Positions 15,806 to 61,442 of a DNA stretch of 64,000 nucleotides are shown here, in pieces. Positions within the stretch are counted from its first letter, which is position 1. The number at the start of each line of letters is the position of its first letter. Source of the DNA: an uncultured Lachnospiraceae bacterium (GTDB lineage: Bacteria; Bacillota; Clostridia; Lachnospirales; Lachnospiraceae); contig CACYMJ010000001.1 of NCBI GenBank assembly GCA_902775485.1, positions 1-64,000 of the forward strand, given 5' to 3'. Position numbers and translations under genes: made by a program. The notes below the pieces were generated by a model that saw only the letters and a program-made list of their open reading frames with translations, was not told where the DNA came from and did not search any database.

Positions 15806-17068
15806 TTAGATCTTCCAATTATCCCTGCCGTCCTGTTTAGCCCTGTAAAGGGCTTCGTCGGCACGGGAAAGGGTACTTTTATAATCCATATCGGAATCAT
15901 TAAAGTACGCAAAGCCCATCGAAGAAGTGATGTTTACGCCTTCGGGAAGATCCTCAAGCCTGATCGAACGTATTGATTGAATTATCTTGTCTGCGATAGG
16001 ATCCAGGATCTGCCTCGGAACATTTTGAAGGATAACGACGAATTCATCGCCGCCCCAGCGTATTATCGAATCGGATGACCTTGTACAGTCACGAATGGCA
16101 TTTACGAAGGCCTTTAGAACCTTATCGCCGACTTCGTGGCCGTAACCGTCATTGAACTGCTTAAAGAAATCAACATCCATCATAAGCAGCAGAGTGTCTT
16201 TTTTCCCTTTTTTGAAATCATCGAATTCATTTTTTAGCAGATGTTCGCCATGGACTCTCGAATCAGCCCCGGTAAGTACATCGGAATTGAGCTTGCTGCG
16301 AAGTTCTTTGTTCTTTTTCTCAAATTCCTTAAGGCCGGCGCGTCTGTATAAAAACAGCATCATGAACAGCATTAACAGCCAGGTTATCGCTATGGCGGAC
16401 AGCACAATCATCTGATATGAATGCATGTTTTCCTGGGCCTGTCTGCGGTAATGCTCTATATCATCAAGATTTACACCCATGCAGATTATCCAGTCAAACG
16501 GTTCATAAAGCTTTGCATAGGAGACCTTCTCGGTAACATCATCGGAATCCAGTTTTTTAAATGCGTAGTTCTGGAATATCTCGCCGTCAGATTTTATACC
16601 GTTCAGTTCGATCTCATAGGCTTTCATTCCCATCTGGTTTACTTCGTTTGTGGAAAGATAGCATCCTTCGGTATCCGACAGATTCGGATGTATCAGCCTG
16701 ATCGCATAGTTGTCACCGCCGTTGTAATCGAGAACTTTCTGTATCCACATATAAGCACCGTCTTCATGCTTCTCGGAATAGATGCGTTCCCTTGCAGCAA
16801 CAAGAAGAGCGTTCTCAACATCATCATCTGATGCATCGGGATTTTCGGAAGTATACTTATCTTTTACAGAATCCAGGAATATGATCATATTATTTACATA
16901 TTCATTCAGCATCGTTTTTTTTACGGCCATTGTCGTGTCATATGTCATTGTCGCACTTATTCCCGTAACGGCACTTGAAAAGACCGAAACGACCATAAGA
17001 GAGATGATGGAACCGATTATCACAAAGATGATGGATCTTATCAGATCATTTTTTTTCTCGTTTTTCAT
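15806..17068 (-). CDS. Cache-domain diguanylate cyclase
   Basis: Membrane receptor that makes cyclic di-GMP in response to an external signal. From the ATG at 17068 it has 420 residues; 31 upstream in-frame codons look untranslated. Membrane segments at about 12-35 and 220-242 flank an outside Cache domain with the usual W-I-Q, LIHPN, EGCYLS and Y-EPFDWIICMGV landmarks. The GGDEF motif at 339-343 (RWGGDEF) is intact, and RSSD at 330-333 is an inhibitory I-site, so the enzyme should be active and feedback-inhibited. It ends 3 bp from the convergent DUF1445 gene and faces the hydrogenase-like receptor across a 227-bp gap. Confidence 0.92.
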   Translation of the reverse strand: MKNEKKNDLIRSIIFVIIGSIISLMVVSVFSSAVTGISATMTYDTTMAVKKTMLNEYVNNMIIFLDSVKDKYTSENPDASDDDVENALLVAARERIYSEKHEDGAYMWIQKVLDYNGGDNYAIRLIHPNLSDTEGCYLSTNEVNQMGMKAYEIELNGIKSDGEIFQNYAFKKLDSDDVTEKVSYAKLYEPFDWIICMGVNLDDIEHYRRQAQENMHSYQMIVLSAIAITWLLMLFMMLFLYRRAGLKEFEKKNKELRSKLNSDVLTGADSRVHGEHLLKNEFDDFKKGKKDTLLLMMDVDFFKQFNDGYGHEVGDKVLKAFVNAIRDCTRSSDSIIRWGGDEFVVILQNVPRQILDPIADKIIQSIRSIRLEDLPEGVNITSSMGFAYFNDSDMDYKSTLSRADEALYRAKQDGRDNWKI

Positions 17069-17253
17069 TATTCGAATGTCAACCTTACGATTAAAAAATG
17101 TATAAAATTTAAAACAATTCAAAAACAATTGAAAAATACAGCAAAATCGATAAAAAGTCAATGAATATACATTCCGGTATATGACGAAAAGATACTATTT
17201 TTGTCAGAAAACAGGGAAAAAGTTATTATTTACTTTAATATTTTAAGGGAAAA

Positions 17254-17262
17254 TGATATAAT
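17254..17262 (+). promoter_or_regulatory. extended -10 promoter of the hydrogenase-like receptor
   Basis: TGATATAAT gives a consensus -10 (17257-17262) with an extended TG. The -35 position (TTTAAT, 17234-17239) is weak, as tolerated by extended -10 promoters. The gene starts 34 bp downstream. Confidence 0.5.
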
Positions 17263-17295
17263 TTATATAATTTTTTCCGAAAGAAGGTATTTCAT

Positions 17296-19230
17296 ATGGG
17301 ATTGGTCAAAACAAATAACAATTGTGTCGGTTGTAACCGCTGCATAAGTGCATGTCCGAGCAGAGGAGCTAATGTTGCCATTGAAAAGGACCGCCGAAAT
17401 GTCATCGAGATCGTTCCGGAGAACTGTATCGCATGCGGCGCCTGTATAGATGCCTGTAAGCATAATGCCCGCGAATATGTGGATGATGTCGACAGATTTT
17501 TTGCAGATCTTAAAAAGGGAGAGAAGATTTCCGTACTTATAGCTCCCGCTTTTCTTGCCAATTATCCTAACGAATATGAAAAATATCTCGGTATGCTCAA
17601 AAAGCTCGGTGTAAACCGTTTCATCAGCATATCATTTGGCGCCGATATAACGACATGGGGATATATCAAGTATATCACCGAGAGGAATTATTACGGCAGC
17701 ATTTCCCAGCCGTGTCCCGCGGTTGTAGGTTATATAGAGCGCTTCCTGCCTGAACTTCTGCCCAAGCTCATGCCTGTACAGAGTCCGATGATGTGCGGCG
17801 CGATATATGTCAAGAAATACATGAATGTAAGTGACAAACTTGCATTTATCAGTCCCTGCATAGCCAAAAAGAACGAGATAGACGACCCGAATAACAAGGG
17901 TATCGTTTCATATAACTTAACATTTAAGCACCTTGTGGATTATCTGAAGAATAATCCCGTAAGCGGATATACGCCGTATACCGATGAGATCGAATACGGT
18001 CTCGGATCGATATATCCGATGCCCGGCGGACTTAAAGAAAACGTTTACTGGCTTCTCGGGGAAGATGCTCTTGTACGCCAGATGGAAGGCGAGCATCATA
18101 TGTACGAATACCTTGAGCGCAACAAGGAAAAGATAAAGAGTACGAGATTCCCTTATCTGTTCATAGATGCTCTCAACTGTACGAACGGATGTCTGTACGG
18201 TCCCGGAGTCGAGGCCAGAAAGACTCTTGATGAGAGTACTTTTATCAGCATCCAGAAGATCAAGGCCAACAGCAAGAAGGACAACAGCAAGGATGCATGG
18301 AGCAGAAAGTTGACACCGGCCAAGAGACTCGAGGCACTCAACAAGCAGTTTGCATCCCTTGATCTTAATGATTTTGTCAGAAAATATACAGATCGCAGCA
18401 AGGAATGCGCATACAAGGAGCCTTCTGAGTCCGAGATCATCAAACTCTACGGCCAGATGAACAAGGATACGGAAGAGAAGAGAAGTATCAACTGCGGATG
18501 CTGCGGATACCGTACATGCCGTGATATGGCTATCGCAATATACAATGGAATCAACCATGTACACAACTGTGTTCACTACATGAGCGATCAGGCTTATGAG
18601 GAGAAGGATAAGGCTGTCGCACTTGCCGATGAGGTCAGACAGGCAAGAGACGAGATGCAGGAGAAAAAACGTTCTCTTTCTGAAGGTATCAAGGAGAACT
18701 TTGATAATCTTACGGAATCGATCACTCAGATTGAGATGACAAGTGCCGATAATGCCAAACAGACCTCAGGAATATATGATGCTATGACCCAGGTTGATGA
18801 TTTTGCGAACAATCTGAAGGAAGTTCTTTCAACGATCGAAGGATATCTTGAAAAGCTTGAATCCAACAATGCAAACGTTATAGCGATATCGTCACAGACA
18901 AACCTTCTTGCATTAAATGCCAGCATTGAGGCGGCGCGTGCAGGTGAAGCGGGAAGAGGATTCGCTGTTGTTGCGGAAGAGATCAAGAATCTTGCGGAGA
19001 ATTCCAAGACAACTGCCGATGATTCAAACAAGAACAATAATGATATTAAGGAAACTATAGAAAAGCTTATTGTCGAAGCCGAAAAGCTTTCAGAGATCGT
19101 AGACGGAGTTAATCAGAGGGCTGAGAATCTCGTGGCTTCAGCCGAAGAGACAACGGCATCGATCGGAAGCATGCGATCCATCTCCATAAGCGTGGAGAAC
19201 TCACTTTCCGAGATACTTGAAAGCGATTAA
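17296..19230 (+). CDS. [FeFe]-hydrogenase-like sensor fused to a chemoreceptor signalling domain
   Basis: A 644-residue fusion with no membrane segment. Residues 1-60 hold two [4Fe-4S] ferredoxin motifs (Cys10/13/16/20 and 44/47/50/54). Residues 75-320 resemble the hydrogenase large-subunit C-terminal domain. Its H-cluster [4Fe-4S] ligands are retained as Cys140 (SQPCPA), Cys188 (ISPCIAKK), Cys295 and Cys299 (NCTNGC), but Pro139 stands where catalytic enzymes have the proton-transfer cysteine. Residues 398-428 form another Fe-S domain (Cys400, 402, 403, 408, 425). Residues 460-640 are a methyl-accepting signalling hairpin with tip near 532-562 ([20 protein letters not shown]). I infer a cytoplasmic redox or H2 sensor feeding the chemotaxis pathway rather than an active hydrogenase. 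Confidence 0.88.
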
Positions 19231-19253
19231 GCAACACACTGAAATCACATAAA

Positions 19254-21029
19254 TCAGGATACACCGGTCTTATGAAGTTTGTTTTTCGGGATGTACTTGA
19301 TCAGTACTTCCTCAAGAGTTCTTCCTGAGACCGGTTTTCCTATCTGATCATCAAATCCGGCACTTTTATAGTAATTATCTGCTTTTGCTCCGACATTTGC
19401 CGTCAGTATTATGACCGGAATGTCTGTGCACAATCCCTCATCCTGTGAGCGTATAAGCTTAAGACATTCTATACCGTCCATTTCGGGCATGAGATGATCC
19501 ATAAGGATTACGTCATAATGATTTTTCTTCGTCAGTTCAAGAGCATCCCTGCCGGATAATGCCGTATCTATATCGATTTTTGTTTCCCGCAGGAGTTTTT
19601 GCTCGACGAGAAGGTTCATTTTAACATCATCAACGATAAGTACCCGGGCCTCAGGAGCAGTGAACATGCTTTTATAATCGTAACGTTTCGCTGCGTGGGA
19701 GATTATGTTAATACTTCCGATCTTATTACTGCCTTCGACCATCTTCTGGGGTATCAGCGCTGTAAATGTTGTTCCCTGTCCGTATATGCTGTCAACTTTT
19801 ATATCACCGTTCATAAGGTCTATAAGCTGTTTTACGATAGAAAGACCAAGGCCGGTACCTTCGATCTCCCTGTTCTTTTCCTGATCCATTCTGGCAAACG
19901 CATCAAAAAGAGTAGGGATAACATCCTCTTTTATACCTATACCGGTATCCTTGATAACGGCGATAAGCCTAATGTTATCATCATCACCGGATTCTGAATA
20001 TACATGTATTGAAACATATCCGGATTCCGTATATTTGACCGCATTATTGAGCAGATTTACAATGATCTGTCTGATCCTTATCTCATCACCGATAAGTTCA
20101 GCCGGTGTATCCGGATCTATGTCGGCATTAAATTTCAGTCCCTTTTCTTTTGCCTGGGGCATTATCATATTGACGATCTCACTCATCATGTCGGAAAGAC
20201 TGTATCTGACCGGAACAATATCCATGCGGCCGGCATCGATCTTTGAAAAATCAAGGATATCGTTAACAAGTGCCAGAAGCATCTTGCCGGCTCCCTGAAT
20301 GATATTTGCATCATTTATTATTTCATCGCTTGCATCGCTCTGACGCAGGATTACCTCATTGAGTCCGAGAATGGAGTTAATGGGGGTCCTGATCTCGTGA
20401 CTCATGCTGGAAAAGAATTTACTCTGTGAACGACTTAATTCTTCAATATCTTTTTTCTGTTTGTTGACACGCTCATTTTCCCTATAAAAAAGGGTGGCCT
20501 GATAGCTTAAAAGAGCAGTCATTACAATACCGACTATGATCAGGGTGAAAAAAGAGTCAAAAAAGGCTTCTTTTCTAGAAAACTCAGTTATTGTTTCGGG
20601 ATGTGTGTATCCTATCCACCAGCATACTGTGACTACGATAAAATTACATGCCAGGAAGAATGCTTTGGTCTTCCCGGATAACGTGATAACTATAAAAAGT
20701 GTGGAAAAAGCGAACCATACGGGTGTTCCTCCGGCTGCTCCGCCGCTTGTAAAGAATGCAGCGGGAAGAAATACGAATATGAGAAGGGTAGCAATTATCT
20801 TCATCGCTGTTTTGATGGTATTACGGTATATAGCCCATATGAACAGGACAGAAGAGAATATGAACTGTATAAATACGAACAGATTGGCATAAAAGGACTG
20901 CCCCAGCACAATTCCACTGATCATCGCAACAAACAGGCCAATGAGCGTGATTATGGAGAACAAAACAAAGGATTTGCTTTGAAAATCAAGTTCCGGGTCG
21001 TTTAAAAGACTGCGTATCCTTTTGATCAA
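19254..21029 (-). CDS. hybrid sensor histidine kinase with receiver domain
   Basis: Membrane kinase of 591 residues. Five or six hydrophobic segments fill residues 20-180 without an obvious periplasmic sensor domain. The HisKA box has His211 (SSMSHEIRTP), the ATPase domain has its N box (NLLNNAVKYTE), DTGIGIK and GTGLGLSIVKQL, and a C-terminal receiver (462-580) carries phospho-acceptor Asp511 and Lys565. The start codon is TTG at 21029, supported by a GGAG site. No dedicated response regulator lies next to it. It is convergent with the hydrogenase-like receptor, 23 bp away. Confidence 0.92.
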   Translation of the reverse strand: MIKRIRSLLNDPELDFQSKSFVLFSIITLIGLFVAMISGIVLGQSFYANLFVFIQFIFSSVLFIWAIYRNTIKTAMKIIATLLIFVFLPAAFFTSGGAAGGTPVWFAFSTLFIVITLSGKTKAFFLACNFIVVTVCWWIGYTHPETITEFSRKEAFFDSFFTLIIVGIVMTALLSYQATLFYRENERVNKQKKDIEELSRSQSKFFSSMSHEIRTPINSILGLNEVILRQSDASDEIINDANIIQGAGKMLLALVNDILDFSKIDAGRMDIVPVRYSLSDMMSEIVNMIMPQAKEKGLKFNADIDPDTPAELIGDEIRIRQIIVNLLNNAVKYTESGYVSIHVYSESGDDDNIRLIAVIKDTGIGIKEDVIPTLFDAFARMDQEKNREIEGTGLGLSIVKQLIDLMNGDIKVDSIYGQGTTFTALIPQKMVEGSNKIGSINIISHAAKRYDYKSMFTAPEARVLIVDDVKMNLLVEQKLLRETKIDIDTALSGRDALELTKKNHYDVILMDHLMPEMDGIECLKLIRSQDEGLCTDIPVIILTANVGAKADNYYKSAGFDDQIGKPVSGRTLEEVLIKYIPKNKLHKTGVS

Positions 21030-21064
21030 TTAGATGTTCTCCAATTATTGACTGGTTATAATAT

Positions 21065-21093
21065 ATTATCCATTCTAACGGTGTAACGGTCAA
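21065..21093 (-). promoter_or_regulatory. promoter of the hybrid histidine kinase
   Basis: On the minus strand TTGACC (21088-21093) and GATAAT (21065-21070) are 17 bp apart, each one mismatch from consensus. The site is 36 bp upstream of the TTG start. Confidence 0.6.
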
Positions 21094-21202
21094 GATTAAC
21101 TTAAATTGAATTCAACGATATAAATCTAAGGTTTAATACGATAATATAATGCCTTATAATGTGTTTGGAAGATCAAAATGCCAAAGAAAGAGGAGAGAGA
21201 AG

Positions 21203-21598
21203 ATGTTAAAGGATACGGCATTAAAATATTATACCGAACAAAACTATAACTGCGCCGAAACGCTCATAAGAGCCGCCAATGAATACTATGATCTGAAACT
21301 CCATGACCGGGATATGATAATGCTTGGAGCATACGGCGGCGGAATTCAGACCGGAAACACTTGCGGAGCCATTCTGGCGGCAGTATCGGTTCTGTCAATG
21401 AAATACGTCGAGAAAAAAGCTCATGAAAGTAAAGATATCAAGCCGATCACAACCGAGCTTATAAGGAAGTTCAATCTGAAATACTCCTCAATACTTTGTA
21501 AAGACATAAAGCCACAGTCATTTGACCACGAAAAAAGATGTCTGATGACTGTCGAAAGCATCTGTGATATTCTTGAATCCGTTATAAACGATCACTAA
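21203..21598 (+). CDS. C-GCAxxG-C-C family redox protein
   Basis: Small protein (131 residues from the ATG at 21203, which has an AGGAGAG site) of the family named for its cysteine pattern. The pattern is visible as NCAE at residue 16, GNTCGAILAA, SILCKDI and EKRCLMTV. The spaced cysteines suggest metal or redox-cofactor binding; members are typical of anaerobes and their function is unsettled. A longer frame from 21149 exists but lacks a ribosome-binding site. Two TATAAT boxes at 21145 and 21155 lie upstream, without clear -35 elements. Confidence 0.85.
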   Translation: MLKDTALKYYTEQNYNCAETLIRAANEYYDLKLHDRDMIMLGAYGGGIQTGNTCGAILAAVSVLSMKYVEKKAHESKDIKPITTELIRKFNLKYSSILCKDIKPQSFDHEKRCLMTVESICDILESVINDH

Positions 21599-21717
21599 GC
21601 AAGAAATCTTTGAGCGAAGGTTGATGCGAAGGAAGGAAGGTGGATTTTGGTATATAGAACTATTCGCGAAAGACAACTTTAACGAATACATTATATGCCA
21701 AAAACAAGGTGAAATGC

Positions 21718-22173
21718 TCAGAACTGTAATTCCGCAGAATCAAGCATGACCGTAAACGGTCCGTCGTTTATCAGGCTTACCTGCATATCGGCACCGAAAA
21801 TGCCTTTTTCGACATGAATATCGTATGATCTTTCAAATTCGTCCGTGATATATTCATACAGAGCGTTTGCATGATCGGGATCGCCGGCTTTTATAAATGA
21901 AGGCCTGTTTCCTTTACGACAGTCGGCATACAGAGTAAATTGCGAAATAACAAGCATCGAACCTGAAATATCCTTAACGGACAGGTTCGTTTTTCCGTTT
22001 TCGTCCTCGAATATTCTAAGATTTGCCGTTTTTTTGATCATTTTATCGGCTGTTTCCGTTGTATCGGAATCACACACACCGACAAGTACCAATAAACCGC
22101 GGCCGATCTTTCCGACGGTTTTCTCATTAACATCCACGGATGCGTTTTTAACTACCTGTATCAGGAATTTCAT
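21718..22173 (-). CDS. dtd: D-aminoacyl-tRNA deacylase
   Basis: Frees tRNA wrongly charged with D-amino acids. The 151-residue protein starts MKFLIQVVKNASVDV and has the two active-site motifs SQFTLYADC (usual SQFTLxA) and NDGPFTVML (the Gly-cisPro region). It starts 3 bp after the AI-2E family gene ends and is the last gene of that run. The 119-bp stretch between it and 21598 shows no recognisable feature. Confidence 0.95.
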   Translation of the reverse strand: MKFLIQVVKNASVDVNEKTVGKIGRGLLVLVGVCDSDTTETADKMIKKTANLRIFEDENGKTNLSVKDISGSMLVISQFTLYADCRKGNRPSFIKAGDPDHANALYEYITDEFERSYDIHVEKGIFGADMQVSLINDGPFTVMLDSAELQF

Positions 22174-22176
22174 GGA

Positions 22177-23568
22177 TCAGGATTCCGTCCTTTTATCTTT
22201 TTCGTTCAGAAGTGCATCTACTGTAGAACTATTCGTTAAAGCATTTGCTCTGCTTTCATCATCCATTTTTGTTTCCTTGGTGACTTTTTCAAATGTTTTT
22301 TCGGCAAATCTGAATGATTTACCGCTGTTGCTTACGCCCTCGTCTTCGGGTGTAAAATCGGATTCAATGTAATATGCCGTCTCAACAGGCATATGCTTAA
22401 TCTCCAGTCTCTTGTTGATAAGCGTCTTAAATGCAGCATATACAACCGCAAATACCGGTACGCCTATAAACATGCCCCATATCCCGAAAAGCCCGGAAAA
22501 TACCGTGATCGAAAAGATGACCCAGAAACTGTTCAGACCGGTCGAATCCCCGAGTATCTTCGGACCGAGTATATTACCGTCAAACTGTTGCAGGATGAAA
22601 ATAAATATGATAAATATCAGACATTTCCGGGGATCCACCATCAGTATGAAGAATCCGCACGGGATCGCGCCTATGAACGGTCCGAAATATGGAATAACAT
22701 TAGTTATTCCAACAACGACCGCGATAAGTGTCGAATACGGGAGCTTTAATATCAGCATTCCGATATAACATAATATTCCGATTATTATTGAATCTATAAC
22801 CTTTCCGGTAATGAATCCGCCGAATATCTTATCCGAATAACGCAAGTTATTTATGAAATTATTGGCTCTCTCCCGCTTCAGGAATGCATATAATACTTTC
22901 TTGGATTGGGCCAGGAACCTTTCCTTATCAATGAGCAGATACAATGAGATTATGATACCGATAACAAAATTCAGAAGGCTCTTGAATATGGAAATTATGC
23001 TTCCGAGCAGGCTTGTCGATGTCCGGCTTATAACATCCTCAAAATAAGGAAGGATCTTGTCGTAAAACAGCTGCGACATATCTATACTGTACTGTTTAAG
23101 CAGCGTCTCCAACTTGGGATATTCAACTAGCACATTCGAATAATAATCATTAACGTTCAAAAGATATACGGGAATACGTCCCAAAATGCTCTGAACGTTT
23201 ACGATAAGCTGAGGCATAAGTGACATTACAAGACCGTATATTACCGCTATGAACATTATCAGCGTGATAAATGCGCTTATAAACCTGATGGTTTTGGCTT
23301 CCCTGGCATATGTATGATCCTTTTTGGGCTTTATCTTATTCCAAAGCGGGAAAAGAAGACGCAGTTCAATAAATCTCATGACAGGGTTTAAGATGTAGGC
23401 GATGGTGAGCCCGGTTATAATGGGAGTCAGCATCGAAAAGAACGCGCCGATCAGCGCGGATAATCTGTCCGAATGAAACAGTATGTAATAAAAAAGTATC
23501 CCTCCGCATACTATAAGAAGCCCGTTAAGCCCCATCTTAAAATACGGATTGTTCTTGTTGTCTCTCAA
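22177..23568 (-). CDS. AI-2E family (YtvI/PerM) membrane transporter
   Basis: A 463-residue membrane protein with about seven hydrophobic segments and the family's re-entrant region (VVGITNVIPYFGPFIGAIPC). Members export varied small molecules or ions; the AI-2 name reflects only the first one studied. The C-terminal 80 residues are hydrophilic and charged. It lies 13 bp after the cytidylate-kinase-like gene and directly before dtd. Confidence 0.9.
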   Translation of the reverse strand: MRDNKNNPYFKMGLNGLLIVCGGILFYYILFHSDRLSALIGAFFSMLTPIITGLTIAYILNPVMRFIELRLLFPLWNKIKPKKDHTYAREAKTIRFISAFITLIMFIAVIYGLVMSLMPQLIVNVQSILGRIPVYLLNVNDYYSNVLVEYPKLETLLKQYSIDMSQLFYDKILPYFEDVISRTSTSLLGSIISIFKSLLNFVIGIIISLYLLIDKERFLAQSKKVLYAFLKRERANNFINNLRYSDKIFGGFITGKVIDSIIIGILCYIGMLILKLPYSTLIAVVVGITNVIPYFGPFIGAIPCGFFILMVDPRKCLIFIIFIFILQQFDGNILGPKILGDSTGLNSFWVIFSITVFSGLFGIWGMFIGVPVFAVVYAAFKTLINKRLEIKHMPVETAYYIESDFTPEDEGVSNSGKSFRFAEKTFEKVTKETKMDDESRANALTNSSTVDALLNEKDKRTES

Positions 23569-23581
23569 TTAAAGCCTCTCT

Positions 23582-24214
23582 TTACTTACCGGATATCATA
23601 TCTTCATAGTCCATTATGAACTGATACAGGAGATTTACCGTACCGTCACGTCCGAGAACCGTTGAATCAACACACAGATCGTAAGTCTCGGCCTTGCCCC
23701 ATTTCTTCGTGGAATAATAGTTATAGTAGCTCTGACGCTGTTTATCCTTCTTCAGGATCATGTCCCTGGCTTCCTTCTCGGATACACTGTATTTATCCAT
23801 AACACGCTCTATCCTGTGATTCAGATCGCCGTATATGAAAAGGTTCAGTACATGTTCGTAATCAGCAAGCGCATAATCGGCGCATCGCCCGATTATAACA
23901 CACGGGCCTTCAGCCGCGATCTTTTTGATAGTATCGAACTGTGCCAGGAAAACCTTGTGTGAAAGCGGCATATCAACATAACTGGTGTTGGTTATGCCGA
24001 ACGAATATGTGTCCATTACGAGATTATACAGGAAACTGCTTGTCGGACGCTCGTCATTGTGTTCCAGTATCTCCTCACAAAGACCGGATTCCTTTGCAAC
24101 ACGCTTGATAAGCTCCTTGTCATAGCTCTTGATGCCGAGCTTTTCTGCAAGTTTCTGCCCTATCTCATGTCCGCCGGTGCCGAACTGGCGCCCTATCGTG
24201 ATTATCGATCTCAA
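23582..24214 (-). CDS. cytidylate kinase-like family protein
   Basis: A 210-residue P-loop protein of the AAA_26 cytidylate kinase-like family. The N-terminus IITIGRQFGTGGHEIGQKLA holds a variant P-loop (GRQFGTGG) without the classical GKS/T ending. VIIGRCADYAL and an R/K-rich lid region (HRIERVMDKYSVSEKEAR) follow. It is not canonical cmk, and the natural substrate is unknown. It heads a run with the AI-2E family gene and dtd. Confidence 0.85.
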   Translation of the reverse strand: MRSIITIGRQFGTGGHEIGQKLAEKLGIKSYDKELIKRVAKESGLCEEILEHNDERPTSSFLYNLVMDTYSFGITNTSYVDMPLSHKVFLAQFDTIKKIAAEGPCVIIGRCADYALADYEHVLNLFIYGDLNHRIERVMDKYSVSEKEARDMILKKDKQRQSYYNYYSTKKWGKAETYDLCVDSTVLGRDGTVNLLYQFIMDYEDMISGK

Positions 24215-53602: not shown

Positions 53603-54415
53603 TTATTTGTTTTTATAAGTAGCATGAAGACAAAGATCTTTGGTAAGGCCGCCGCCCTCATAAACCCATCCGTCAGACGTTACGTAATGATCAAACTTCA
53701 CTCCCTTGTCTCCGTGATCATGAGGATCGATCCATGCACCGTCTCCGTCATGTATGGTTCTCTCTCCGAGATCCTCACCGCAGAAATCACATACAAAATG
53801 AATCTTGTGTGTTCTGAAATACCAGGCCTTAATAGCTCTGTCTTCGGTGATGTTTGTCCAGTCACCTTCCCAACCCATGAACTCATATCCGGCTATACAC
53901 GGATCATCGGGTGTCGGAAGAGAACTTCCGTAAGGTACGATATCGGTCTTCCACAGTTCACCGTTATGTCCGTTGTACCAGTAAACGGCACAGGTTTTTC
54001 CGGGAACACCCTTTTGCATATTGATAGTACTCCACCAGGGCTCGAACGGAGCAGATTTGTTTCCGTTTATCTTTCTTCCGCTCCTGTATCCGCCTGTATA
54101 GGTTTCAAAATAACAATAAGGCTGAGGCGGAGCTTCCTTGCTGTATGCACCGAGTATAACGCGGTCCTCGGTTACGTTTAATGCGTTTCCGACCCATGAT
54201 ACAAAATTATAACCGGGTACATAAGTATCGGTGGGAACCGGCGCATTCTGTCCATGAGCTACGGGTACGGTCACAGTCTTGAGTCCGTAAATATATGTAA
54301 CATTATGCGTACCGCCCTTTCTGGATCTCGCGGCTACATCAACACCGCCAAGAACTGTTGCAGATAATGCAACAGACAGCAGACATACGACCGCCTTTTT
54401 CATTAATCCCTTCAT
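53603..54415 (-). CDS. secreted protein with InlB B-type repeats
   Basis: A 270-residue exported protein. The ATG at 54415 (AAAGGGG site) gives a signal peptide of about 28 residues (KKAVVCLLSVALSATVLGG, cleavage near VAARS). Two repeats resemble the InlB B-repeat (Listeria-Bacteroides) beta-grasp domain: about 38-90 (GYNFVSWVGNALNVTEDRVI) and about 125-180 (GYEFMGWEGDWTNITEDRAI). A third, diverged unit (about 185-268) begins with a CxxC (FVCDFCGEDLG). There is no LPXTG, membrane or choline-binding anchor. It stands alone with its own promoter and terminator. The binding partner is unknown. Confidence 0.8.
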   Translation of the reverse strand: MKGLMKKAVVCLLSVALSATVLGGVDVAARSRKGGTHNVTYIYGLKTVTVPVAHGQNAPVPTDTYVPGYNFVSWVGNALNVTEDRVILGAYSKEAPPQPYCYFETYTGGYRSGRKINGNKSAPFEPWWSTINMQKGVPGKTCAVYWYNGHNGELWKTDIVPYGSSLPTPDDPCIAGYEFMGWEGDWTNITEDRAIKAWYFRTHKIHFVCDFCGEDLGERTIHDGDGAWIDPHDHGDKGVKFDHYVTSDGWVYEGGGLTKDLCLHATYKNK

Positions 54416-54478
54416 CTTTTTCCCCTTTCGTGTTTCATTTAATGATCGTTTCATTATCAAATGTTACAGTCTTATTTG

Positions 54479-54523: not shown

Positions 54524-55783
54524 TTATCTGTTGGCAAGTTCTTCCATAACATCATCCCACGTTATGTTCTTTTCTGCCATCAGTACCATCAGATGATAAA
54601 GAAGATCCGCTATCTCGTATTTACTCTCTTCAGGTTCGGGATTCTTGGCTGCTATCACGATCTCAGTAGCTTCTTCCCCTACTTTTTTGAGGATCTTATC
54701 TATACCCTTGTCAAACAGATAATTTGTGTATGATCCTTCCTTGGGATTTTCCCGTCTGTCAAGTATAACGGCCATAACATCCGTAAGTACGGAATACGGG
54801 TCCTGTCTGTCATAATCCTTTTTGACCACTTCGTTAAAGAAGCATGAATACTCGCCCGTATGACATGCCGCCCCTATCTGTACTACCTTTGCAAGCAGCG
54901 TATCATTATCGCAGTCGGCATAAAGCGATTTAAGATACTGATAATGACCGCTCGTTTCACCTTTTTTCCACAGACACTCTCTTGAACGCGAATAATAAGT
55001 CATTATACCTGTCCGGACAGTTGCCTCAAAAGCTTCCCTGTTCATATATGCGACCATTAGAACGGCTGATGTGGCTGCATCCTGGCAGACGACCGGTATC
55101 AGATCCTTATCGTTTTTTACAAGTTCATCCCATGAGATCTTTGCATCCGGGATATTCACTTCAAAACCGAGTTCTTTAAGATCATCTTTTAGAGCAAGCA
55201 GATCGGATTTCCCATTTACGATATCACCGGACAGTCCATAAACGTTTTTCTTCGAGAAAACGCTTTCTATGTCGCAATCGTCATTGATAACACATATAAC
55301 GGGAATATCTTCAAACATTTCATCGCTCATATGACCCAGCAGTAAGGCGCCGCCGGTATTTTCCCTGACAGCTTTGAGATTATCAAGGATCTGTTCACAG
55401 CTGTCAGCACATACAAATGTTTTATCCTTAGAAAAGCGCTTACCTGCTTCCTCCATAAGATCGATGTTGGATTGCTTGGCCATATTGAGCGCGACTTTAC
55501 GGCAACCTGCATACAACAGTTTTTTAACATCTTCCAGTCTGTTGACATTTCCGGCGGCATATATGTCTGTATCAACGGCTTTTGTGATCGCTCTTACAGT
55601 CAAAAGCGCATCTTCATGTTCGGTATCTCCGTCCGAAAGATCAAAAAGCAATATGGCATCGGCACCGTTTACCGAAAGCGAAACACAGTATGACACCGGA
55701 TCGCTGCTTATGACAGTATCGTCTTTAAATCCCTTTATAAGCTTTCCGCATTTAAGATATACGCATGGTATTATCAGTTTCAT
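54524..55783 (-). CDS. hisI: HisF-like domain fused to HisI-HisE
   Basis: Three-part protein of 419 residues. About 1-190 resembles the HisF/HisA barrel ([38 protein letters not shown]), but the first catalytic aspartate is Tyr9 and the GGGI phosphate loop reads AAGNVN, so it looks inactive and shortened. About 215-315 is phosphoribosyl-AMP cyclohydrolase ([41 protein letters not shown]). The rest is phosphoribosyl-ATP pyrophosphatase ([28 protein letters not shown]). Steps two and three of histidine synthesis are thus covered. It is the last his gene here, with a start overlapping the hisB stop. Confidence 0.9.
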
Positions 55784-56388
55784 CAAAGAGCCCCTTTCGT
55801 AGATAAAACACCGGCGATCCTTTCGTCAGGCGTGCAGGCTTCATCCAGTGCCTTGGCAAAGCTCTTGAACATAGCTTCGCATATATGATGTGAATTGTTT
55901 CCTGATATAACCTTTATATGAATGTTCATAAGAGCACTGTAACTTACGGCATAGAAAAACTCGCGAACAAGTTCGGTATCAAGATATCCGATCCTCTCAG
56001 TCGGAAAATCGGCCTCATAAGAAAGATAAGGTCTGCCGCATAGATCAACAGCACACAAAACAAGAGCATCATCCATCGGAAGGATAAAAGATCCGTACCG
56101 TTTTATCCCTTGCTTGTCTCCAAGCGCCTCTTTTATCGCCTCACCCAGAACTATTCCGCAATCTTCCACGCTGTGATGTCCGTCAACAAGAAGATCACCT
56201 TCACATGTAAGTTCAAGATCGAAAAAGCCGTGCCTTGCAAAGCCTTCAAGCATATGATCAAAGAAACCTATGCCGGTATCTGTCTTAGCCTGACCTTCCC
56301 CGTCGATGTTTATGCTCACCGATATGTTGGTCTCTTTTGTTTTACGTTCTTTCTGCGCTTTTCTTGAAACAGTTTTTTTTACAGCCAT
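55783..56388 (-). CDS. hisB: imidazoleglycerol-phosphate dehydratase
   Basis: Sixth-step enzyme of histidine synthesis, 201 residues from the ATG at 56388 (GGAG site). The manganese-binding histidine motifs are [24 protein letters not shown] and [14 protein letters not shown]. It is the single-function form without a phosphatase domain. It overlaps hisIE and follows hisD immediately. Confidence 0.96.
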
Positions 56389-56389
56389 A

Positions 56390-57691
56390 TCATAATACTC
56401 CTTTATCAAACCTTACTCCTATGGAATTGGCATGTGCGGTAAGACCTTCGGAACGTGCAAATTTCATGATATCATCGCAGTCTCTTTCAAGTGCATTTCT
56501 CGAATATGCGATTATGCTTGTCCGTTTTATGAATGCATCCACTCCGAGAGGTGAGAAAAACTTTGCCGTACCGTTTGTAGGAAGCACGTGATCCGGACCC
56601 GCAAAATAATCTCCCAAAGGTTCGGAAGAATATGCTCCAAGGAAGATCGCGCCTGCATTTTTTATCTTTGTCATCGTCTCATAAGGATCTTTTGTCAATA
56701 TCTCAAGATGCTCTGATGCGATCGCGTTTGCAGCGTCAACGGCTTCATCAATATCTTTGGCAATAAGGATATATCCGTAGTTATCAAGTGATTTGCGGAT
56801 TATATCCCTCCTTTCAAGAAGCGGTACAAACTCATCGATATATCGGCTTACGGACTGTGCAAGTTCATTACTGTCGGTTATCAGTATCGCACTTGCAAGT
56901 TCATCATGTTCCGCCTGGGAAAGCAGATCGGCGGCGACATACTTGGGATCTGCAGAATCGTCGGCTATAACAAGTATCTCACTTGGTCCTGCAATAGAAT
57001 CAATGCTGACAAATCCGAAAACAGCTCTTTTGGCCAGCGCTACAAATATATTACCTGGTCCGACTATCTTGTCAACTTTTGGTATTGAAGCGGTACCGTA
57101 AGCCATTGCGGCTATAGCCTGGGCTCCTCCGACCTTATATATCTCCGTTACACCGGTTATCTTTGCGGCCACCAAAGTAGCCGGATATACCTTGCCGTTA
57201 CTATCAGCCGGTGTTGTCATTATTATGCGTTTTACTCCGGCAACAACTGCTGGTATTATGCACATAAGCGTAGAAGAAGGATATGCCGCCTTACCGCCGG
57301 GCACATAAACTCCGACACGCTCTATTGGAGTGATCTTCTGTCCAAGTATCGATCCGTCTTCTTTTGTTTCTATCCAACTGTTTGCAAGCTGTTTTTCATG
57401 ATATGATCTGATGTTTTCGGCAGAGCGCCGCATCACTTCGATAAGATCCGGATCAAAGCAGTTGTATGCCTCTTCGATCTCCTGTTCGGTCACCTTTACA
57501 TTCGACTGATCAACCTGCCATTTATCGAACTTTGCAGTATATTCAAAAACAGCCTTGTCACCGTTTTGACGTACATCAGATATTATATCGTTAACGGTCT
57601 GTTCATACTGTGTATACTGACCGGGATTACGTTTTAAAAGATCTGACAGGATATTGTCTACGGATTCTTTTGTAAGTACTATCTTATTCAT
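56390..57691 (-). CDS. hisD: histidinol dehydrogenase
   Basis: Oxidises histidinol to histidine in two NAD-linked steps. From the ATG at 57691 (AAGGAGG site) it has 433 residues, the normal length. Landmarks are VPGGKAAYPSSTLMCIIPA, AQAIAAMAYGTASIP, GPGNIFVALAKR, LLSQAEHDELASAIL with zinc ligands, and GPDHVLPTNGTAKF. The start overlaps the hisZG stop by 4 bp. Confidence 0.96.
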   Translation of the reverse strand: MNKIVLTKESVDNILSDLLKRNPGQYTQYEQTVNDIISDVRQNGDKAVFEYTAKFDKWQVDQSNVKVTEQEIEEAYNCFDPDLIEVMRRSAENIRSYHEKQLANSWIETKEDGSILGQKITPIERVGVYVPGGKAAYPSSTLMCIIPAVVAGVKRIIMTTPADSNGKVYPATLVAAKITGVTEIYKVGGAQAIAAMAYGTASIPKVDKIVGPGNIFVALAKRAVFGFVSIDSIAGPSEILVIADDSADPKYVAADLLSQAEHDELASAILITDSNELAQSVSRYIDEFVPLLERRDIIRKSLDNYGYILIAKDIDEAVDAANAIASEHLEILTKDPYETMTKIKNAGAIFLGAYSSEPLGDYFAGPDHVLPTNGTAKFFSPLGVDAFIKRTSIIAYSRNALERDCDDIMKFARSEGLTAHANSIGVRFDKGVL

Positions 57692-59325
57692 AAAACCTCC
57701 TTGATCCTGTCTACCAGAAGCTTTATGCGTTTCGAATGAAGCCTCATGGACACAGGGTTTACGACCATTCTTGCAGACAGATCGCATATTTCCTCAAGAA
57801 CATCCAGACCGTTCTCACGAAGAGTCGAACCTGTTTCGACTATATCCACGATAACGTCGGATAATCCCACTATAGGAGCAAGTTCAATACTTCCGTTCAG
57901 TTTTATGAGATCCACGCTCTGATGTTTGATATTGTTAAAATATGCTCTGGCAATATGCGGGTATTTTGTCGCCACTTTTATGATATCTCTTTTTTCAAGT
58001 AACTGCGAATCACTTTTATGACCGCATACGCACATACGGCATTTACCGAAACCCAGATCAAGAACCTCAAGTATCTTACGGTCTTCCTCATCAATGGTAT
58101 CCTTGCCTGTCACACCGATATCGGCAACGCCGTGTTCCACATATGTCGGAACATCAGGGCCTTTGGCAAGGAAGAACTTTACCTTGAGTTCTTCATTGAC
58201 AAATATCAGTTTGCGCGAGCCGCCATCCTTCATCTCATCACAATAAATACCGGTCTTTTCGAGTAATGCCAGAGTCTTTTCGGCAAGTCTTCCTTTTGTT
58301 AGTGCAAAAGTAAGATATTCGTTATTTGCCGACCTGCCATCGTCCTTTGCATCGCGAAGTGCTATCATAAGTTCATCGAGAGATACACCGAATCCGATAG
58401 CCGGAGTATCCTTTCCGAATTCCTTCACAAGATTATCATATCTGCCGCCCTTCATTATCGCATCGCCGAATCCGAACGTATATGCCCTGAAAAGAACACC
58501 CGTGTAGTAGTTGTACTTGTTCAGAAGGCCGAGATCCACCGAAATATACTTATCGGCCCCTTCACGGCTGAGTATATCGATGACATTTATCAGCCGGTCA
58601 ATTGCTTCAAGGCTTTTAGGGTTGGAAATTTTGCTCTTTAATCCGGCCAGTGACTGTCCGGTCGTATAATCATTGGGAACGGCAAGTATCAGTTCGATCA
58701 TTTCCCGATCTATACCGATACGGTTTAACAGATCTTCAACCTTATAAAAGTTACCCGACGCGATAAGTGCCCTCAGTTTTTCCTCGTCAGGCCCTGTAAT
58801 GCCCATCTGTTCAAACAGGCCTTTAAAGAAATTACCGTTCCCGACGGAAACGACAAAGTTTTTAAAGCCGGCTGCTATCATACAGTTTATGACAAGACTT
58901 ATCATACCGGCATCAGCTTCGCATGAATCATCATTGTACAGTTCGGCTCCTATCTGGGTCAGTTCCTTCAGTCTGCCGTTAAGATCGCTTCCGTTAACAA
59001 ACGTATTTCCGCTGTAACAAAGCTTGACCGGATCCGTTACATCATAATAGAGCTTTGAATAAGCTCTCGCCATGGACGGGGTAAAATCGGGACGAAGGAC
59101 AAGCGTATTGCCTTCCTTATCATAGAACTTATACAGTTCACGGGATGGGGTCATTCCCATATTATTGGCAAACACGTCAAAATACTCAAAAGAAGGGGTC
59201 TGCATAAGCATATACCCTTTCTCTTTTATTACATCCAGAAGCCTGTTGCCGATCTCGAGCTGTTTTTTTAATTCGTCAGGTGTTATATCTCTTACACCTT
59301 CAGGGGTGTGGATAAGATCCGCCAT
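57688..59325 (-). CDS. hisG: HisZ-HisG fusion, ATP phosphoribosyltransferase
   Basis: One uninterrupted frame of 545 residues joins the regulatory and catalytic subunits of the first histidine enzyme. Residues 1-325 are HisZ, a histidyl-tRNA-synthetase paralogue (HTPEGVRDITPDE, LRPDFTPSMARAYS, YYTGVLFRAYTFGFGDAIMK, GGRYDNLV). A ten-residue polar linker follows, then HisG of the short type at about 337-545 (FALTKGRLAEKT, GVADIGVTGKDT, and PRPP loop DIVETGSTLREN). Short HisG needs HisZ, so the fusion enforces a 1:1 ratio. It is the first gene of the operon and has a GGAGG site before the ATG. Confidence 0.93.
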   Translation of the reverse strand: MADLIHTPEGVRDITPDELKKQLEIGNRLLDVIKEKGYMLMQTPSFEYFDVFANNMGMTPSRELYKFYDKEGNTLVLRPDFTPSMARAYSKLYYDVTDPVKLCYSGNTFVNGSDLNGRLKELTQIGAELYNDDSCEADAGMISLVINCMIAAGFKNFVVSVGNGNFFKGLFEQMGITGPDEEKLRALIASGNFYKVEDLLNRIGIDREMIELILAVPNDYTTGQSLAGLKSKISNPKSLEAIDRLINVIDILSREGADKYISVDLGLLNKYNYYTGVLFRAYTFGFGDAIMKGGRYDNLVKEFGKDTPAIGFGVSLDELMIALRDAKDDGRSANNEYLTFALTKGRLAEKTLALLEKTGIYCDEMKDGGSRKLIFVNEELKVKFFLAKGPDVPTYVEHGVADIGVTGKDTIDEEDRKILEVLDLGFGKCRMCVCGHKSDSQLLEKRDIIKVATKYPHIARAYFNNIKHQSVDLIKLNGSIELAPIVGLSDVIVDIVETGSTLRENGLDVLEEICDLSARMVVNPVSMRLHSKRIKLLVDRIKEVL

Positions 59326-59381
59326 ATTTCCTCCACTTTAATGCGTTAAATTGCTAATTCGCTACCATGCTACCACGTGAA

Positions 59382-59411
59382 ATTATAATCCGTTCATCCT
59401 CTTAATGTCAA
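59382..59411 (-). promoter_or_regulatory. consensus promoter of the his operon
   Basis: On the minus strand TTGACA (59406-59411) and TATAAT (59382-59387), both perfect, are separated by 18 bp. The -35 lies within the last codons of recU. The short leader (about 50 bases) contains a repeated GGTAGC (GGTAGCATGGTAGC) but no attenuator hairpin or T-box that I can see. Confidence 0.82.
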
Positions 59412-59925: not shown

Positions 59926-60873
59926 TCACATCACCTTTTTAAAATCTTCCGGGATATCTATTTCCACAGTCTTACCTGCCAGATCATTTAATTGAGGATC
60001 ATCGGGAAATACAAGTCTGTAACAGACAAGCATCTGGGATCTGATCCCGAATTTTTTCTCATATTCCCTGTTAACATCAGCATATCCGTATTTTCCGTCT
60101 CCGATCAGAGGATGTCCTATAGAAGCCATGTGAGCTCTGATCTGATGGGTTTTCCCGGTTACAAGTTCTATCTCAACAAGACTTCTGTTGTTTTTTGTGC
60201 AAAGCGGATGAACCAAAGTAATTATATCCGCACCTTCTTGGCCGGTACTGATACTGACGGTATTGGTAGCGTTATCTTTTATGAGCTTTCCCGATAATTC
60301 CATATCGGAACTGATGCTACCGTATATTATGCATTTATAGTATTTTCTGATCGTGTGTTCTTTTATCGCCAGGGTTACACTTCTTGCCGCACGGTATGTC
60401 TTGGCAAAGATAACAAGCCCGGATGTGTTCCTGTCCAGCCTGTTACAAACCGACGGGGTAAAATTGCCGGATGTTTCGCCGGATCCGGCAGGATCATGTG
60501 TAACATATGCAAGACAGATCTCGTTAAGAGAAACATCATTTTTTGCGGATCTTTGTGACAGCATACCTGACGGTTTGTTTACTATCAGGATATCCTCGTC
60601 TTCATAAACGATTTTGGGCATCATACCGGACAGCGAAGGATCGGGCGTGCTCTTTTCGGAAAAAGAAGCAAATGTTTCATCCGAAAGATAAAACTTTACA
60701 ACATCGCCTTCGCTAAGAAGTTCACTGCCGGAAGCTTTTGCATCATTTAATACTATGTTTTTTTTGCGCAGCATCTTGTATGTAAATGACCTGGGTGCAT
60801 TACAAAGTATATGTGATGCAAATTTATCAAGACGCCTTCCTTCGTCGTTTTTTGAAATGACGTATTGCTTCAT
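59926..60873 (-). CDS. RluA family pseudouridine synthase
   Basis: A 315-residue rRNA or tRNA pseudouridine synthase. An N-terminal S4-like domain (EGRRLDKFASHIL, YKMLRKKNIVLND) is followed by the catalytic motif RLDRNTSGLVIFAK with its aspartate, and KTHQIRAHMASIGHPL. It is a second RluA-type enzyme, distinct from that at 28870, with closer resemblance to RluC. It overlaps the upstream membrane protein gene by 4 bp. Confidence 0.92.
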   Translation of the reverse strand: MKQYVISKNDEGRRLDKFASHILCNAPRSFTYKMLRKKNIVLNDAKASGSELLSEGDVVKFYLSDETFASFSEKSTPDPSLSGMMPKIVYEDEDILIVNKPSGMLSQRSAKNDVSLNEICLAYVTHDPAGSGETSGNFTPSVCNRLDRNTSGLVIFAKTYRAARSVTLAIKEHTIRKYYKCIIYGSISSDMELSGKLIKDNATNTVSISTGQEGADIITLVHPLCTKNNRSLVEIELVTGKTHQIRAHMASIGHPLIGDGKYGYADVNREYEKKFGIRSQMLVCYRLVFPDDPQLNDLAGKTVEIDIPEDFKKVM

Positions 60874-61442
60874 AATGATACCGCTTTTAATGTATTCAGT
60901 ATTGCCGCGTCTGCATTTTGCGATTGAGATGAAAACTTATCGTTAAGCTCGCGGCATCTGTTTGAAAACAGCGTTTCATCGTCAAATATACATACAACGG
61001 CCTTATGTCCGGCGGCTTTTAAAACATCAGACAAATGGTCCTTAAGCGGTTTATGATCTTCCTTTTTGTTTACCAAAGCGATCACATTACCGGCCATGGA
61101 ACATATCACCGGAACAAAATAAGTCTTTTCGGATGTGGTCAGTATATTTTCGAATATAACCGGCAGATCACGTATAAATCCGCAATATCTTTCATGATCT
61201 TTTTTTGTAAGCGATCGAAACCGTGCGAACATGATCACACCAACAAGTGATTTACATGCCGGAAGAAGCACCAGTACCGCGAACACGGACCAAAGGCTTT
61301 TTCGCGTGTGCAGCGTCAAAAGACCTATAAAAAAGATGCCCAGAGCCATTGCATAAAGGATCGCAGTCTTTATGATCTCAAATATCATTTGTTTATGTAT
61401 ATATCCGAATGTCCCTTTAAGATCACGATTCACATATTTCAT
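60870..61442 (-). CDS. two-helix membrane protein of unknown function
   Basis: A 190-residue protein I do not recognise. The N-terminus has two membrane segments (about 24-44 and 49-71) separated by a short basic loop. The C-terminal 115 residues are soluble and contain FVPVICSMAGNVIALVNKK and HKAVVCIFDDETLFSNRCRE. It overlaps the HAD gene upstream and the RluA-type gene downstream, so it is a true member of this operon. Confidence 0.75.
   Translation of the reverse strand: MKYVNRDLKGTFGYIHKQMIFEIIKTAILYAMALGIFFIGLLTLHTRKSLWSVFAVLVLLPACKSLVGVIMFARFRSLTKKDHERYCGFIRDLPVIFENILTTSEKTYFVPVICSMAGNVIALVNKKEDHKPLKDHLSDVLKAAGHKAVVCIFDDETLFSNRCRELNDKFSSQSQNADAAILNTLKAVSL

Follow-up and report, generated by a model that had tools for sequence, protein, structure and literature searches.

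Can an enzyme whose catalytic and regulatory subunits are ordinarily two proteins also exist as one polypeptide? The question is raised by a gene in the window, by which we mean the whole analyzed stretch of 64,000 nucleotides (positions 1 to 64,000 of contig CACYMJ010000001.1, assembly GCA_902775485.1) from an uncultured Lachnospiraceae bacterium. The gene, here called hisZG, joins HisZ and HisG, the subunits of the short-form ATP phosphoribosyltransferase. Statements attributed below to published papers hold for the passages of those papers that were available. In the short-form enzyme, HisG alone is slow and histidine-insensitive, and HisZ, which activates it from about 20 Å away, holds the histidine pocket (PMC9734150, PMC10795190). 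The two are normally separate proteins (PMC10795190), as the preliminary description of this DNA had said. On the evidence of its sequence, hisZG is a real, functional-looking, and recurrent variant of the known enzyme. It is very probably a single-chain, histidine-regulated short-form ATP phosphoribosyltransferase that would assemble like the usual 4+4 complex. Beyond the preliminary description, the analysis adds an apparent repeated origin of the fusion, the constant absence of the HisZ C-terminal domain from it, and the presence of split relatives within the same genus.

Two complete domains in a single frame

The gene runs from 59325 to 57688 on the minus strand as one open frame of 545 amino acids, with an ATG start and zero internal stops. 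Its HisZ part matches Pfam tRNA-synt_His over model positions 1-308 of 308 (233.1 bits, cut-off 25), and its HisG part matches Pfam HisG (PF01634) over positions 3-157 of 158 (181.8 bits, cut-off 25.5) and NCBIfam TIGR00070 with 200.7 bits (cut-off 75.75). The frame, Pfam, and NCBIfam agree on a complete HisZ and a complete short-form HisG joined by a polar linker, as first described from the letters alone, and the profile matches show the boundaries given then (residues 1-325 and 337-545) and the position of the junction to be correct. The HisZ model TIGR00443 (265.2 bits) outscores the histidyl-tRNA synthetase (HisRS) model TIGR00442 hisS (174.2 bits) by 91 bits. The best solved chains by sequence are a separate HisG, 2vd2_A (fusion residues 336-541), and a separate HisZ, 3od1_A (residues 6-324); among the 50 solved chains listed, none has its best stretch spanning both parts. 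The Pfam scan finds these two families only, the chain ending at residue 545 and the HisG match at 542, and therefore no C-terminal regulatory domain of the long-form HisG is present. Across 12 members of the genus, the linker is variable in sequence and nearly constant in length (13-15 residues by HMM boundaries).

The fusion is the sole HisG match in its genome, which is a 61-contig draft, 84% complete. A separate HisRS is encoded by a 427-aa frame (G000:C10), whose VRGMSYYTG aligns with LNKYNYYTG of the fusion, the Arg before Tyr-Tyr being replaced by Asn. The catalytic, histidine-pocket, and aminoacylation roles given here to individual residues (E128, Y273, Y274, D80, and others, and the HisRS Arg) are our assumption, and we likewise take VDIVETGSTLRENGL in the HisG domain to be the PRPP loop.

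Occurrence and apparent repeated origin of the fusion

Among 37 genomes of the window's genus that were searched, 35 gave a match with an E value of 1e-60 or lower, and by frame count the two genes are fused in 12 of these and split in 23. The 12 fusions form one clade with 100/100 support in a 48-row tree of HisZ, HisG, and HisD, and again form one clade in the HisZ-only, HisG-only, and HisD-only trees. The 48 rows come from 54 loci, without G053 (no HisZ in the stretch), G046 and G040 (cutting motif absent), and G044, G052, and G043 (too divergent). That two genes were joined by an error of assembly or sequencing, for which a draft of 61 contigs at 84% completeness might speak, is scarcely credible: the same fused frame stands in 11 further genomes of the genus, whose proteins are 64-75% identical to that of the window, and 36 fused genes lie in other genera. 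A one-off assembly join is very unlikely because of this recurrence in 12 of the 35 genomes, and was ruled out on the 11 further members.

Outside the genus, candidate fusions were taken as HisG matches in frames of at least 500 residues, each confirmed from its sequence. The genes are fused in 4 of 114 genomes with a HisG match in the family sample (one genome per genus; 130 searched), in 5 of 106 in the order sample (156 searched), in 10 of 127 in the class sample (157 searched), and in 1 of 134, the window's own, in the phylum sample (159 searched). In one other family, f41, there are 26 fused genes, 6 split, and 1 undecided among 33 (38 searched). Because the denominators take in long-form HisG and HisG cut by contig ends as not fused, and the samples overlap slightly, these frequencies are rough lower bounds. 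The search control was positive in 13 of 14 known genomes and failed in Bacillus subtilis, and therefore some HisG genes will have been missed.

The fusion is accordingly uncommon yet recurrent. The preliminary description did not know the arrangement to be common, and this holds as far as the sample counts and the usual separateness of the parts are concerned; the fusion nevertheless recurs, and its bare existence is already in print, hisZ-hisG being named among his gene fusions in one background sentence of PMC9413887. That is the same fusion by name, given in the available passages without species, architecture, or function. The term hisZ was not found in the text of PMC1963479, one of two papers that PMC9413887 cites for fusions, and the fusion goes unmentioned in the available parts of PMC7478625, PMC3896937, PMC8305728, PMC9437257, and PMC9026213. 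No characterized HisZ-HisG fusion was seen among the entries listed in searches of the open PMC library, subscription journals lying mostly outside the search.

Full-length homologues could be mapped in the 12 genus genomes and, overall, as 48 distinct fused genes in eight family codes: 12 in the genus, others in three further genera of the same family, 26 in f41, two in f11, and one each in f8, f9, f26, f79, and f53. The architecture is uniform in all 48, with HisZ, a linker of 9-22 residues, and HisG. Some frames of other lengths proved misleading. Those of 605-619 aa in f41, considered as fusions that keep the HisZ C-terminal domain, have an N-terminal frame extension instead and lack the domain; frames of 622-637 aa, considered for the same reason, are split genes by frame count, and frames of 380, 436, 446, and 377 aa (G151, G252, G350, and G396) are split genes as well.

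The short interval before HisG sets the fusions apart from most split genes. In a 126-row set, the tail of split HisZ beyond the core is 47-106 residues long in 73 of 86 rows and 2-14 in 13, with the line for presence of the domain set at 45 residues (L014 and G606, among the 73, are barely above it). As only 9-22 residues precede HisG in 48 of 48 fused genes, the C-terminal domain is kept in none, and in the architecture read from these comparisons, HisG sits in every fusion checked at the place of the C-terminal domain of most split HisZ. Within the genus, the long tail is present in 15 of the 23 split genes and absent in 8 (G019, G006, G004, G014, G001, G024, G012, and G016).

The fusion appears to have arisen more than once in related bacteria. 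On the 126-row HisZ+HisG tree (40 fused, 86 split; a quick-type tree, with a program warning of long branches meeting), the fused/split label requires 11 changes; supported branches force 9 of them. In an approximately unbiased (AU) test on a 30-row subset (11 fused, 6 changes, model without mixture), a single fused clade was rejected (p 4e-50). The 91- and 126-row trees include 16 of the 35 genus genomes and leave out G350 and G396 (divergent) and G053 and G528 (no HisZ in the stretch). We are unsure of the number of events in the window's own family. It is rather unlikely, but worth serious consideration, that the fusions of this family (genus g1, G551, G576, and G605) share a single origin, with transfer or splitting afterwards. 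An AU test fails to reject a group of the 12 genus fusions with G576 (p 0.099; this test and the accompanying family trees were run without G037, G049, and G634), and the HisG-only tree groups the genus fusions with G605 and one split row, G595. However, the HisZ+HisG trees put split genes between the family's fusions, with modest support, and across families one fused clade is rejected by the 30-row test above. As a separate observation, the f41 genus g340 holds fused G516, G519, G520, G521, and G523 beside split G515, G517, and G518, on a branch apart from the other f41 fusions; its fusions are apparently a second fusion event in f41.

Loss of the domain and fusion tend to go together. Among 9 tree-independent pairs taken on supported branches, 7-8 combine domain loss with fusion, 0 show the reverse, and 1-2 show no difference (sign test, median p 0.016). 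Two routes fit this picture. A deletion from inside the domain to the start of hisG would have created the fusion and taken away the domain at a stroke; alternatively, the domain was lost first and the genes were joined later. The f8 fused gene fits the loss-first route because in the 126-row tree it is placed among split genes already without the domain. It is possible that the domain-less split genes of the genus represent stages before fusion. The HisZ of Lactococcus lactis and Thermotoga maritima lacks the domain and still forms the complex (PMC10795190), so the domain is dispensable for assembly. We also note that the hisZ and hisG open frames overlap or nearly touch in six of the eight domain-less split members of the genus (gaps from -45 to +15) and are separated by gaps of +55 and +125 in the remaining two.

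The fused domains show a long stem branch at the base of the genus fusion clade. With the topology fixed, it measures 0.65 for HisZ and 0.43 for HisG, and 0.09 for the adjacent HisD, while four other stems of the genus measure 0.13-0.35, 0.04-0.21, and 0.04-0.17, respectively (42 rows, L014-L019 being left out of the 48-row set). More widely, the HisZ/HisD ratio has a median of 1.34 on eight fusion stems against 0.89 on 117 branches outside fused clades (p 0.015), and the HisG/HisD ratio a median of 1.21 against 0.85 (p 0.011); with the genus stem removed, p is 0.046 and 0.035. These tests are exploratory and one-sided, with the topology taken from HisZ+HisG; they use 99 of the 126 rows, since only 18 of the 40 fused rows have a usable HisD within the stretch, and one fused clade with zero HisD length was dropped from the medians. 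Two stems, G305 and G044, have no HisZ excess, which speaks against general fast change at fusion. Replacement of hisZG by transfer is an alternative to fast change on the genus stem; the genus is one group in the HisD tree, and the HisZ-only and HisG-only trees need two and three changes, respectively.

Predicted working of the fused enzyme

The known system closest to hisZG is the short-form hetero-octamer of HisZ and HisG (L. lactis, T. maritima, Psychrobacter arcticus, and Acinetobacter baumannii), which has the same domains, key residues, and place in the pathway but consists of two separate proteins, whereas the window encodes one chain with a linker. Like the HisZ part of the fusion, the HisZ of L. 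lactis and T. maritima is without the C-terminal domain (PMC10795190). The long-form HisG-L homohexamer resembles the fusion in that one chain carries both a catalytic and a regulatory part (PMC10795190); its regulatory part, however, is a C-terminal HisG domain with no Pfam match in the fusion, where the HisRS-like HisZ is N-terminal. The fusions hisIE, hisNB, and hisFIE likewise place pathway partners in one gene (PMC1963479, PMC9413887), although hisIE and hisNB unite enzymes of different steps, and hisZG unites a catalytic subunit with its own allosteric subunit.

In the preferred reading, the N-terminal HisZ domain, a HisRS relative that would not charge tRNA, acts as the histidine sensor and as the activator of the C-terminal HisG domain; the latter would join ATP and PRPP in the first step of histidine synthesis. 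A flexible linker would attach HisG where most split HisZ of these bacteria carry the C-terminal domain, and four chains would most likely assemble like the known complex, with a HisZ tetramer between two HisG dimers. Both domains being in one chain, the subunit ratio is fixed at 1:1, as the preliminary description had pointed out, and free, unregulated HisG would never be made. We infer the activity, feedback inhibition, and quaternary structure from the protein's letters and its relatives. Normal chemistry and feedback, with HisG always beside its activator, would be expected because the catalytic and pocket positions, as we assign them, are kept. The window's protein retains D80, T82, G126, E128, Y273, Y274, G293, G294, Y296, and D297, and at positions conserved in at least 93% of the 86 split rows, it departs at 0 of 58 in HisG. 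Over 40 fused rows, the presumed histidine-pocket positions E128, Y273, Y274, G293, G294, and Y296 are kept in 100% and D80 in 95%; since these residues are kept, the sequence bears no sign of lost feedback.

Several observations weigh against this reading of hisZG as a normally regulated enzyme. In the same set of positions conserved in at least 93% of split rows, the window departs at 3 of 22 in HisZ (residues 140, 191, and 221) and keeps 19. Five positions fall below 90% over the 40 fused rows (140, 221, and 279 in HisZ; 433 and 483 in HisG), among them HisZ F279, kept in 55%, and HisG A483, kept in 47%, both of which are present in the window. The long HisZ and HisG stem would also fit altered regulation. 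Finally, the match to TIGR00443 stays 6 bits short of the equivalog cut-off of 271.65; we treat this score line as a convention, with no biological feature behind it, and the Pfam HisZ cut-off is exceeded by 208 bits.

Some of these points would also suit a fused chain that is active with HisZ mainly as a scaffold, its histidine feedback weakened or lost and control left to transcription by HisR. In its favor are the rapid change of HisZ and HisG, not shared by HisD, along the stem leading to the fused clade, the alteration of three conserved HisZ positions, and a likely HisR operator upstream of hisZG. We nonetheless consider this scaffold role improbable, as the pocket positions are kept throughout the fused rows, and as HisG was accelerated too, which fits re-fitting of the interface as well as loss.

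It is more improbable still that the enzyme works as separate subunits, arising either by cutting of the translated chain or by additional synthesis of HisG from an internal start. Cleavable linkers could be polar and variable, as those of the fusions are, and 11 of the 48 fused genes have an in-frame start codon inside the linker; in 8 of the 48, all from f41, GGAG, GAGG, or AGGA precedes a start near the HisG start, and separate synthesis of HisG is possible in that family. The linker of the window (residues 326-336), however, has no in-frame start codon, such a motif precedes an in-frame start near the HisG start in 0 of the 12 genus genes, and no common cleavage motif is apparent in the linkers by eye, no motif search having been run.

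The single-chain, histidine-regulated enzyme preferred here may be part of a wider pattern. Tentatively, and at rather less than even chances, the fusion could be a repeated solution of the Clostridia in which HisG replaced the HisZ C-terminal domain and the two parts were then jointly re-fitted, giving a tethered enzyme permanently activated by HisZ and controlled by histidine only, without the assembly step of the two-protein form. The short-form ATP phosphoribosyltransferase serves as a model of how activation and inhibition are relayed between separate proteins, and a natural one-chain form beside split relatives of the same genus makes the effect of a tether on activation and histidine feedback testable. 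The absence of the HisZ C-terminal domain from every fusion checked offers a way to ask what that domain is for, and for biotechnology the fusion could serve as a ready-made construct with a fixed subunit ratio.

The his operon and its surroundings

In the window, hisZG heads the run hisZG-hisD-hisB-hisFIE (Table 1). The palindrome between promoter and start codon has one mismatch in the 14 specified bases of the HisR consensus CACTTTAn6TAAAGTG (PMC9413887). At up to three mismatches, this pattern occurs four times in the window, where 3.0 occurrences would be expected from chance; the three matches other than this palindrome have three mismatches each. One match to the TrpR family, to which HisR belongs, is present in the genome. 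At the gathering threshold, no Rfam family matches the window, and an RNA leader was rejected on that ground.

Table 1. Features of hisZG and the neighboring his genes, with positions in the window
Feature	Position	Strand	Basis
Promoter-like TTGACA-18-TATAAT	59382..59411	-	Consensus match, 12/12
Likely HisR operator, 20-base palindrome	59334..59353		CACTTTAn6TAAAGTG
Shine-Dalgarno GGAGG of hisZG	59330..59334	-	Sequence
HisZ domain, residues 1-325; stops after the HisZ core, no C-terminal domain	58351..59325	-	Pfam tRNA-synt_His 10-319; TIGR00443 12-323; comparison with split HisZ
Polar linker, residues 326-336	58318..58350	-	Sequence; comparison of genus members
Short-form HisG domain, residues 337-545	57691..58317	-	Pfam HisG 390-542; TIGR00070 338-522; closest solved chain by sequence 2vd2_A
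ATGA, hisZG stop overlapping likely hisD start (start inferred)	57688..57691	-	Sequence
hisD, histidinol dehydrogenase	56390..57691	-	Pfam Histidinol_dh, 593 bits; start inferred, mechanical ORF from 57787
hisB, imidazoleglycerol-phosphate dehydratase	55783..56409	-	Pfam IGPD
hisFIE, N-terminal HisA/HisF-like half barrel + PRA-CH + PRA-PH	54524..55786	-	Pfam PF00977 (5-131), PF01502, PF01503

The hisFIE of the window resembles the "(FIE)" fusion named for Ruminococcus gnavus in PMC9413887. Its half barrel corresponds to positions 2-132 of the 228 in PF00977, and contigs C26 and C37 of the genome carry longer matches to PF00977. The locus L119 (G000:C41, 2-1873) has a second, partial hisD at its beginning and, after it, a half barrel of similar HisF-like type that continues in frame into an FHA domain; this hisD is nearest to those of G019, G018, and G025 (75-76%) and 69% identical to the hisD of the window, and the locus may be foreign DNA, a misjoin, or a real odd fusion.

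Other features of the window lie farther from the subject. On the minus strand, 53603-54460 encodes a small secreted-looking protein with weak matches to Listeria-Bacteroides or InlB-B-type repeats, below the Pfam cut-offs, and 60870-61442, flanked by a pseudouridine synthase and a HAD hydrolase, holds a 190-residue frame that has no match in Pfam at E 0.01. The GC skew turns from plus to minus at about 16000-24000, and the long frames listed between 14 and 28 kb shift from mostly the plus to the minus strand.

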